From Acidimicrobiia bacterium (lineage in GTDB: Bacteria > Actinomycetota > Acidimicrobiia > IMCC26256 > JAGPDB01): 35,388 nt of DNA. How positions within the stretch are numbered: the stretch's first letter is position 1; every line of letters begins with the position of its first letter. Positions 13,804 to 16,762 of the stretch are shown one piece after another. The stretch lies in contig JAGPDB010000020.1 of NCBI GenBank assembly GCA_018057765.1, positions 1 to 35,388 on the forward strand, given 5' to 3'. The notes below the pieces were generated by a model. The model made no database searches. It saw nothing but the letters and a program-made list of their open reading frames with translations, and was not told the DNA's origin. The translations under genes were made by a program, and so were the position numbers.

Positions 13804-16059
13804 ATGGTGTTTACCCAGGAGATTCTACTAACGAACGAACATACATCTGAGCAAGATTGGCAACGCTTTTTCAATGTTATTGGCACACGTGCAAAGGGGT
13901 TAAAACCAATTGAATTGGAAATCATCTTCGATGGTTCCATTGTCAGGTTTTTTAGTATATCGAAAAAAGATTTAACGCATATTTCGAATGGCTTAGATGG
14001 CTTCTTATTCCAGTCTTTAAATTCTGATGATATGGAAATGTTAAAAACAGCACTAGCTGTAAGAAAGCGCATTTTTGTTAGAATACCAAAATTCGGGACA
14101 ATATTTGACTTAAAAGAAAAATATTTAGTAAAAAAGGGTATTGATTTAAAAGTCGCTAGTTTTAAAATACGACGAATATTTACAAAGTTATTTTGGAAGC
14201 GAGAGTTCATTTTTGATGTCCATGGAATTAAAAAAACTAGTAAAAAACTGTCGAATGTTTTAGTTCCAAAAATACTGGATATAGATTTTTATACAAATTC
14301 TTCGTATATCAAAAGAAGAATTTCTAATTATTTGGATATAGAAAAAACCGCACCTTTTCTCAATACGCGAAACGAAAACCCATTGTTGTCAGTGAACATG
14401 TTTCCGTATTCAACTCGTGAACATTTTTTGAATCTTACTGATTACGAATTTGATAAACATTCATTTATTGTTGGTGCTAGTGGTAGCGGGAAGTCACGCT
14501 TTATCGAACTTCTTGTTGACCGTTTAGGGCAAACGCATCTAAAAAATAACTATAGAGTAATTGTTATTGATCCCCACGATGCATTGCGCGAAAATTTAAT
14601 GCATATACCATCTACTCGGATTTTGAACTTTTCAAAAGAAGGGACATCTTTGTTCCCCGACTCCCAAGCAGATATTACAGCATCTACAGAACTTACATCT
14701 ACACTATTGCTTTCATTGATGGGGTCAACTTCAAATTCTCGATTAGAGAGATTGTTGAGATTCACTACATATGTTCTATTCGTTGCCCAAGCAATGTCAA
14801 TGACGAACCTAAAACGGTTTTTGACAGATTTAGAAGCTAGAACACAAATATTGAATCATGTTAAAGGCTATATTCCTGACAATATCGAACATTTCTTTGG
14901 TTCAGAATTTAACGAAATAAAAACTCAACATTATGTTGAAGCATTCCAGCCGATTGTAGCTCTTATTGATGAGATGGAACTCCAACCAACATTAAGTGCT
15001 GATGGTGATGTTTCGATGTTAAATATTATCGAAGAAAATTTCTTGACAGTATTTTCGTTAAACAAAGTATCAATGGGTGAAAAGGTAGTCAAAACTGTTG
15101 CTGGATTATTAATTCAACAAATATTTTTACTTGCCCAAGCACGAGCATTTAATCAAAAAGTTATTCTTGTAGTTGATGAAGTATCAGTCGTTCAAAATCC
15201 AACGCTTGCTGCAATATTGGCAGAATCCAGGAAATTCGGTATGTCTGTAATTTTGACTCAACAATACTTTGGCCAAGTAGAATCTTCACTACAACAAGCT
15301 ATTTTATCAAATGCAATAAATTATTATGTTTTTAAGGTTTCTGAGGAAGATGCAAGGATCCTTGAGGGCAATGTCTCGATGGAGATACCAAAATCTATTG
15401 TTGAAGCAGAAATGATAAAAGGTTTAACTGAAGCTGATATCCGTGTAAAAATGATGACAGAGCTAAATCCTCGTGAATGCATAGTGCGTGTTGCTGCTGC
15501 AGGACGGGTATTGCCAGCGATTAAAGCTAAGACTATGACTGTTGACTCAGCAACTAAATATTCAAATGGAAACAATATTATTGAGCTGGAAGAGCAGAAT
15601 CGCCAAGTATTACCAGATAAATTTATTTATGCAAAAAAAGAGGGCCAGTATAAGTCTATCGTTGATGAAAAAGCCCAAATTCCAAAAGATATTGTGGAAA
15701 TCTTACCGCAACCATTGCCTCACGGAGAAAATCTAGTTAGTGTAAATTCAACCATTTCGAATTTGTCTGAATCACATGAACCAGATGAACTTTTAACAAT
15801 TCAAGAACCTAGCGAGTTGCGATCTAATTCAAATTTGCCCCCAAATATTTTACAGCATAGAAGTGTAAGAGAGAGTTTGGGTTCAAGTCCTGAAAAGCCA
15901 CTTAATATGGCTCAGGTCTTAGCTACTCAGTCATCGTCTCGTATACCTATTAAAGAAAAACTTGTAGAGATAGATAAAGAAATAAAAAAGAACGATACAA
16001 AAATAAAAGTCCCATTAAAACCATATATATTTGAACAAGATAATGACCAAGAAAATTGA
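13804..16059 (+). CDS. HerA/VirD4-like P-loop ATPase of unknown role
   Basis: A 751-residue protein with an uncharacterised N-terminal region (about 1-200, basic in the middle) and a RecA-like motor of the HerA/FtsK/VirD4 group. A disordered, polar tail covers about 575-751. Walker A is GASGSGKS (224-231), an IDPHD stretch follows near 258, and Walker B is VILVVDE with D458/E459. ESRKFGMSVILTQQ near 475-490 is the usual HerA/TraG/VirD4 sensor region. Such motors move DNA or protein substrates; nothing shows which applies here. No transmembrane segment is evident. The start is ATG 13804 or GTG 13807, the latter matching leaderless spacing. The next gene begins 7 nt after its stop with its own GAGGA site, implying joint function. 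No relaxase, VirB4 or pilin gene is nearby, so a full conjugation system is not indicated. Confidence 0.75.
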   Translation: MVFTQEILLTNEHTSEQDWQRFFNVIGTRAKGLKPIELEIIFDGSIVRFFSISKKDLTHISNGLDGFLFQSLNSDDMEMLKTALAVRKRIFVRIPKFGTIFDLKEKYLVKKGIDLKVASFKIRRIFTKLFWKREFIFDVHGIKKTSKKLSNVLVPKILDIDFYTNSSYIKRRISNYLDIEKTAPFLNTRNENPLLSVNMFPYSTREHFLNLTDYEFDKHSFIVGASGSGKSRFIELLVDRLGQTHLKNNYRVIVIDPHDALRENLMHIPSTRILNFSKEGTSLFPDSQADITASTELTSTLLLSLMGSTSNSRLERLLRFTTYVLFVAQAMSMTNLKRFLTDLEARTQILNHVKGYIPDNIEHFFGSEFNEIKTQHYVEAFQPIVALIDEMELQPTLSADGDVSMLNIIEENFLTVFSLNKVSMGEKVVKTVAGLLIQQIFLLAQARAFNQKVILVVDEVSVVQNPTLAAILAESRKFGMSVILTQQYFGQVESSLQQAILSNAINYYVFKVSEEDARILEGNVSMEIPKSIVEAEMIKGLTEADIRVKMMTELNPRECIVRVAAAGRVLPAIKAKTMTVDSATKYSNGNNIIELEEQNRQVLPDKFIYAKKEGQYKSIVDEKAQIPKDIVEILPQPLPHGENLVSVNSTISNLSESHEPDELLTIQEPSELRSNSNLPPNILQHRSVRESLGSSPEKPLNMAQVLATQSSSRIPIKEKLVEIDKEIKKNDTKIKVPLKPYIFEQDNDQEN

Positions 16060-16066
16060 GGACTCA

Positions 16067-16762
16067 ATGTTAGAACAAGCACAATATATTTTAGATAAAG
16101 TCATTGGGCAAATAACTGGTTTTGAAAACCCGATGAACGTAGAACAATTTTTAGCCAAATATGCATTTGATGTTAGATTGCCCTCACCTGTAAATGACTC
16201 AATTACTGGAGAGGTGACATGGGCACAATCAACGAATCCATCAAAATTTATAACATTAAATAATGCGAGAAAACGAGTCGATGTTGATGAATTTATGATT
16301 GCACCTAGACCATTAAACTCGATGACAGATATTTTAAATGCTTGGCAAGAAACAAATTATACTTCAACAGAAAGACAAATAGACTCTATAGATATTTTTG
16401 AATGTGACAATATTTATAATTCACAAAATATCTATAGGTCCCAAGACATTCATAATTCTAAACATGTGTTATTTAGCGATAGCGCATTGACGAGCGAATA
16501 CATTGTCGCTCAACAAAGGTCACATAACTGCTTTTATTGTGCACGAATAGAAGACTCGAAAGATTGTTCAGAGAGTTTTAATGTTTCATGGTCTTCATCT
16601 ATTGTAAAATCGGCCTTTATTCATGATTGTTATGATATGTTCGAATGTCTATTTTGTTCTCATTTAGCAGGAAAAAAATATTGTGTTGCCAATATACAAT
16701 TAACACAAGAGCAATATTTACCTATAAAAGAAATGGTAATGCGCTGGATATTAGGTAACTAG
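16067..16762 (+). CDS. Cys-containing hexapeptide-repeat (probable beta-helix) protein
   Basis: A 231-residue protein paired with the upstream ATPase. ATG 16067 is chosen because GAGGA (16058-16062) precedes it; ATG 16043 or TTG 16031 would add 8 or 12 residues inside the ATPase reading frame. Residues 1-100 are globular. From about 106 to 207 the chain shows a roughly six-residue periodicity of short polar turns (IYNSQN, IYRSQD, IHNSKH, then NCFYCA, KDCSES, FECLFC), as in solenoid beta-helices, with several cysteines. It ends in a motif of the form C-x2-C-x4-GKKYC followed by QLTQEQY. From memory, proteins ending in a similar LRxKxYCxxNxQYxxEEY motif occur in Patescibacteria near HerA-like ATPases. 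No function is known to me. Confidence 0.65.
   Translation: MLEQAQYILDKVIGQITGFENPMNVEQFLAKYAFDVRLPSPVNDSITGEVTWAQSTNPSKFITLNNARKRVDVDEFMIAPRPLNSMTDILNAWQETNYTSTERQIDSIDIFECDNIYNSQNIYRSQDIHNSKHVLFSDSALTSEYIVAQQRSHNCFYCARIEDSKDCSESFNVSWSSSIVKSAFIHDCYDMFECLFCSHLAGKKYCVANIQLTQEQYLPIKEMVMRWILGN

Follow-up and report, generated by a model that had tools for sequence, protein, structure and literature searches.

What is the role of a VirD4/HerA-superfamily ATPase whose partner gene encodes a solenoid protein and which lies among actinobacterial housekeeping genes? The window (the whole analysed stretch of 35,388 nt from an Acidimicrobiia genome) contains such a two-gene cassette, flanked on one side by a catalase-like gene and on the other by the genes for ribosomal L31, purA, purD, and purB. 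The surrounding 35-kb contig carries ordinary housekeeping genes, whose names, other than that of L31, were assigned from translations. The host genome is a 51-contig assembly of 1.76 Mb that is 97% complete, and its 16S rRNA gene has one to two mismatches to two actinobacterial primers. The GC3 of the cassette resembles that of the host genes. The features of the cassette are listed below.

13804..16059, plus strand: P0001, a soluble VirD4/HerA-superfamily ATPase of 751 aa, recognized by its ORF, Pfam matches, and Saccharibacteria homologues
13804..14370, plus strand: N-terminal domain of P0001 (~residues 1-189), without Pfam match or transmembrane helix
14473..14496, plus strand: Walker A motif of P0001, GASGSGKS (residues 224-231)
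15175..15180, plus strand: Walker B acidic pair of P0001 (D458/E459)
15574..16056, plus strand: C-terminal tail of P0001 (residues 591-751), weakly conserved and probably disordered
15901..15942, plus strand: conserved tail motif of P0001, LNMAQVLATQSSSR (residues 700-713), a candidate docking motif
16058..16062, plus strand: GAGGA, ribosome-binding-site-like, overlapping the ATPase stop
16067..16762, plus strand: P0002, a solenoid protein of 231 aa, starting 7 nt past the ATPase stop
16373..16696, plus strand: about nine 12-residue solenoid rungs of P0002 (residues 103-210)
16673..16717, plus strand: conserved solenoid-closing motif of P0002, KKYCVANIQLTQEQY (residues 203-217), shared with 550-aa patescibacterial proteins

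For the ATPase, the Walker A and Walker B motifs are intact and located as the original prediction had placed them. The nearest Pfam family is TrwB_AAD_bind (PF10412; 3e-10; score 39.9 bits, cut-off 20.5), which matches the motor core only, and DUF87 (HerA; 1e-7; score 32.3 bits, cut-off 23.2) matches only around the P-loop. The matches in NCBIfam, PHROGs, and PADLOC are also partial, and a PDB sequence search returned HerA P-loop matches only. The unmatched N-terminal domain is present in the short-type homologues described below as well. The proposed lack of a membrane anchor agrees with hydropathy profiles, in which no N-terminal membrane helix was detected in P0001 and 19 Saccharibacteria relatives. 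The best 19-residue values within the first ~200 residues of these proteins are 0.8-1.4, compared with 2.3-3.5 in the clearest transmembrane-bearing patescibacterial paralogues; several VirD4-like paralogues have a transmembrane helix. At the other end of the protein, the tail motif is present in 12 of the 15 tails with an automatically located start, compared with an average of 0.04 in shuffled tails, a contrast that is inflated by the kinship of the sequences. Three further tails, for which the start was not located automatically, show the motif by eye. Among the three automatically located tails without the motif, one belongs to an ATPase-solenoid fusion; among the non-fused homologues, two have no recognizable motif and two more have a partial one. 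The conservation of this motif suggests a role in docking.

Compared with the VirD4/TrwB/TraG coupling proteins, P0001 has the same Walker A/B core and matches TrwB_AAD_bind, but it lacks a membrane anchor and relaxase or type IV secretion system (T4SS) neighbours, and its N-terminal domain is unmatched. With HerA-NurA and HerA-based defence systems, it shares the DUF87 core around the P-loop, but no HAS barrel, NurA, SIR2, or nuclease partner was found, the partner of P0001 being the solenoid. The pair is not a HerA-NurA system, and its ATPase is not a conjugation coupling protein of the membrane-anchored kind. A firm placement of the ATPase within a HerA-NurA or conjugation family, which would have spoken against a separate system, was not obtained. 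In Patescibacteria, 5,713 VirD4 homologues have been reported, of which 148 are near virB4; most of these thousands of VirD4-like ATPases have no known function and are encoded at a distance from virB4, and exaptation of the distant homologues was not ruled out (PMC12102498). P0001 resembles these homologues in its motor superfamily and its distance from T4SS genes, and the cassette differs from them in having a partner gene and no membrane anchor. The cassette could be one case of such exaptation among the virB4-distant homologues. In the literature searched, neither the pair nor the solenoid family of Patescibacteria was found described, which does not prove absence.

The second gene begins, as expected from the original prediction, 7 nt after the ATPase stop and is preceded by the ribosome-binding-site-like GAGGA. 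The ATG at 16067 is preferred over an upstream TTG at 16031 as its start because of homology. The middle part of P0002 has a period of 12 residues, with an autocorrelation of 0.56 in the family alignment and 0.48 in the single sequence; over lags of 5-30 residues, none of 3,000 shuffles reached either value. The lag-5 autocorrelation is negative, and classification as a pentapeptide-repeat protein was ruled out on the dominant period of 12. The closing motif has the core K-K-Y-C-V-A-N...E-Q-Y. This repeat fits the solenoid architecture proposed initially, but the label "Cys-rich" is overstated: P0002 has eight cysteines in 231 aa (3.5%), and since the content varies from 1.2 to 5.7% in relatives, cysteine is not a defining feature of the family. 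A zinc or redox role of the short solenoid was rejected, as its cysteines are unconserved among relatives. P0002 has no match in Pfam and a weak match in PHROGs. AlphaFold models of P0002 (pLDDT 43, from an alignment that included seven distant homologues) and of a long solenoid protein (pLDDT 67, best in the terminal domains and about 60 for the solenoid) were of low confidence and yielded neither a usable model of a possible beta-solenoid nor a convincing fold match.

The ATPase-solenoid pair forms a conserved cassette. In the Saccharibacteria class, 21 of the 295 sampled genomes (7%) have homologues of the two genes over their full length and with the order kept, and the ATPase gene is directly upstream on the same strand in all 18 assessable loci. 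The remaining loci are one fusion and two that are interrupted by contig ends. In the fusion (genome G770; L175 5199-7112; 638 aa), the ATPase core continues directly into the solenoid; this natural-looking protein is without the ATPase tail and much of the N-terminal domain. The first short P0002-like proteins came from genomes G521 and G644, where they are directly downstream of the ATPase. These solenoids are 44-47% identical to P0002, and the ATPases share 41% (761 aligned columns) and 44% (611 columns) identity with P0001. The G644 16S has no mismatches to four Saccharibacteria-specific primers (from a table in PMC6073563), whereas that of the host genome has three to five. These uncharacterized Saccharibacteria pairs (e.g., L106, L107, and L159-L177) resemble the window pair in near full-length homology, gene order, a soluble ATPase, and, in most cases, the tail motif; they differ from it in host phylum. 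Because the neighbouring genes differ between loci, the conserved unit is the pair itself rather than general synteny. The pair is not confined to the window genome, being found in these 21 genomes and in a congener of the host.

Two congeners of the host were sampled, and in one of these species (G001) the pair occupies the corresponding site ahead of rpmE and purA. Its contig begins inside the ATPase gene, and its solenoid gene is split by 2.5 kb of 71% GC within a 47% GC contig (L153, G001:C153, 566-3100). This insert encodes part of a surface-like protein and is probably an assembly chimera. In the conserved part of the solenoid, the host and G001 sequences are 66% identical, and pN is 0.226 compared with a pS of 0.918, from 108 comparable codons only and with saturated synonymous sites; therefore, the solenoid has been under purifying selection. 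The third species (G002) lacks the cassette: rpmE adjoins an aldo-keto reductase gene at this site, and there is no match elsewhere in the genome. No close homologue was found in the other genomes of the order (58 examined), and 396 other actinobacteria gave no close homologue and weak remote matches only.

In the ATPase phylogeny, P0001 and the Saccharibacteria sequences group together (support 100/100) and are widely separated from the long-type ATPases of other Patescibacteria. The best tree places P0001 inside Saccharibacteria, and a topology with Saccharibacteria as one clade is not rejected (AU test, p = 0.34). As this leaves a Saccharibacteria clade without P0001 possible, the direction of transfer rests on the distribution, which favours a likely transfer from Saccharibacteria into the ancestor of part of the genus. 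Contact between Saccharibacteria and the host lineage is plausible because cultivated Saccharibacteria are epibionts on Actinobacteria (PMC10633639), an argument that concerns the hosts known from cultivation. The cassette probably reflects an exchange of genes that involved Saccharibacteria and a member of the Actinobacteria, the phylum of their cultivated hosts.

The statement in the original prediction that Patescibacteria have similar pairs proved accurate: the closest are those of Saccharibacteria, and a larger version is present in other Patescibacteria. The first lead was a patescibacterial-looking contig in an actinobacterial bin (L024, G092:C154), which carries an ATPase gene followed by a gene for a 621-aa solenoid protein and is likely a contamination of that bin. 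A scan of named genomes then identified an ATPase gene followed by three tandem long solenoid genes in Ca. Peribacter UBA2144 (L045). Full-length long solenoid proteins are present in about two dozen of the 287 sampled Patescibacteria, often in many copies, and in nearly every locus retrieved, the best-matching ATPase paralogue and the long solenoid genes are no more than ~3 kb apart. For five other VirD4-like ATPase paralogues that were checked, no long solenoid gene was found within their 10-12 kb. The 550-aa patescibacterial proteins have the same 12-residue period as P0002, so that the long type resembles the window cassette in placing an ATPase beside solenoids of this period with the same closing motif. 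These proteins differ in having a treble-clef/two-solenoid/treble-clef arrangement, in which the solenoid unit occurs twice between zinc-finger flanks, and in having many tandem paralogues. Their ATPases are only ~25% identical to P0001 and end in F-x-x-P-[LI]-[ILV] (e.g., L045 5384-7621) instead of the P0001-type tail motif. This end is reminiscent of the docking tails at the C-termini of proteins such as SSB. In one locus (L100 2-12459), a single ATPase gene is directly preceded by a tandem array of eight long solenoid reading frames, the first of which is truncated at the locus end, and some genomes have more than 20 candidate long-solenoid stretches. The contig L024 also carries a short AlaRS gene and has a GC content of 32%, compared with 40% at the 16S locus of that bin.

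Alongside the conserved operon, the fusion, the soluble motor core, the repeat, the tail motif, and the selection on the solenoid, we infer that the two proteins act together. Our main reading, with a probability of roughly 0.42, is that the cassette encodes a two-component cytosolic machine. The ATPase would assemble as a ring, as expected from its superfamily, and the solenoid would dock at the C-terminal side of this ring, aided by the tail motif, to serve as a rigid adaptor or a substrate-gripping arm. ATP hydrolysis would then move or remodel a polymer, most likely DNA, which is the first-choice substrate because of the ATPase superfamily. As an architecture, the motor-plus-scaffold arrangement of the original prediction is well supported. 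Its suggested links to DNA transfer, uptake, or the cell surface are speculative, and the ATPase family showed no membrane helix. The probable ancestors of the ATPase are VirD4-like proteins of Patescibacteria that were freed from a role in secretion. A broader view, which is held tentatively, is that the cassette represents a new class of soluble VirD4-derived motors with solenoid adaptors, which may have been expanded into arrays in some Patescibacteria, while a compact form may have passed between Saccharibacteria, as epibionts, and one actinobacterial lineage, in which selection maintains it. The cassette provides a subset of patescibacterial VirD4-like ATPases with a defined partner gene and architecture, and the version in another phylum, reduced to two genes, may be more amenable to study.

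Alternatively, the ATPase may act as a soluble coupling protein, delivering proteins to the T4SS of the cell, with the solenoids as substrates or adaptors. A coupling role is possible because both the Saccharibacteria and the host have T4SS-like genes. VirB4-like ORFs are present in the Saccharibacteria tested, and a host contig (L199, G000:C12, 944-12194) carries an actinobacterial T4SS-like cluster with genes for a VanY-like protein, a TrbL/VirB6-like protein, a 525-aa VirB4-like ATPase, and a VirD4 protein. The discovery of this cluster led to the abandonment of the idea that the host is without any T4SS. It also restricts the earlier claim that the ATPase has no relaxase or VirB4 partner: neither is found in the window, but the genome carries this cluster. 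In addition, the nearest Pfam family of P0001 is one of coupling proteins, the T4SS of S. epibionticum was reported to have no recognizable coupling protein (PMC10633639), and the tandemly expanded long solenoid genes resemble a substrate family. However, P0001 has no membrane anchor, the compared Saccharibacteria loci have no T4SS neighbour in common, and the cassette occurs in 7% of the class whereas T4SSs are reported as broadly ubiquitous in Patescibacteria (PMC12102498). Moreover, a dedicated VirD4 is already encoded within the host cluster, on a separate contig, by an ORF of 921 aa (PF02534, 2e-44). These patterns make this explanation unlikely in comparison to the cytosolic machine.

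The two genes may instead form a defence or conflict system directed at phages or mobile elements, with an ATPase that detects or moves DNA and a solenoid that obstructs or tags this DNA. Such a system would fit the patchy distribution, the varied chromosomal positions, and the apparent cross-phylum transfer of the cassette, as well as the PADLOC matches of P0001 to mad8 (1e-12) and HerA (7e-8). Nevertheless, these matches are restricted to the shared motor core rather than full-length, and no nuclease, NADase, protease, or toxin domain was matched in either protein, such that P0001 differs from HerA-type defence and MADS systems in having no effector domain. The large tandem solenoid arrays beside the long-type ATPase are also atypical of defence systems, and we consider this explanation improbable as well. 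DNA handling tied to competence is far less probable: natural transformation has been reported in Saccharibacteria (PMC10633639) and the motor belongs to a DNA-pump superfamily, but the same source reports that com genes are conserved throughout the group, whereas the cassette is rare, and no common neighbour gene points to competence. Finally, a binning or assembly artefact, a concern raised by the 51 contigs of the assembly and by the patescibacterial-looking contig in another actinobacterial bin, is largely refuted by the location of the cassette within a contig of host genes, its host-like GC3, and its occurrence at the same site, with a 66% identical solenoid part, in G001.

A plasmid tblastn search gave one remote coupling-protein match for P0001 and none for P0002, and a phage tblastn search with P0002 or P0003 gave no match. 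Scans of viral contigs identified a single phage-like contig with a terminal solenoid fragment (L044 5763-5966, IMGVR_UViG_3300025030_000857), with which a weakly matching phage family (phrog_15341) was noted. In addition, one actinobacterial family (G188; similar matches in G221 and G242) has a gene for a solenoid-like protein of 137 aa (L181 1372-1785) that bears cysteines and a closing motif resembling that of P0002. This gene is flanked by a groEL-like and a ychF-like gene, with no ATPase gene adjoining it.
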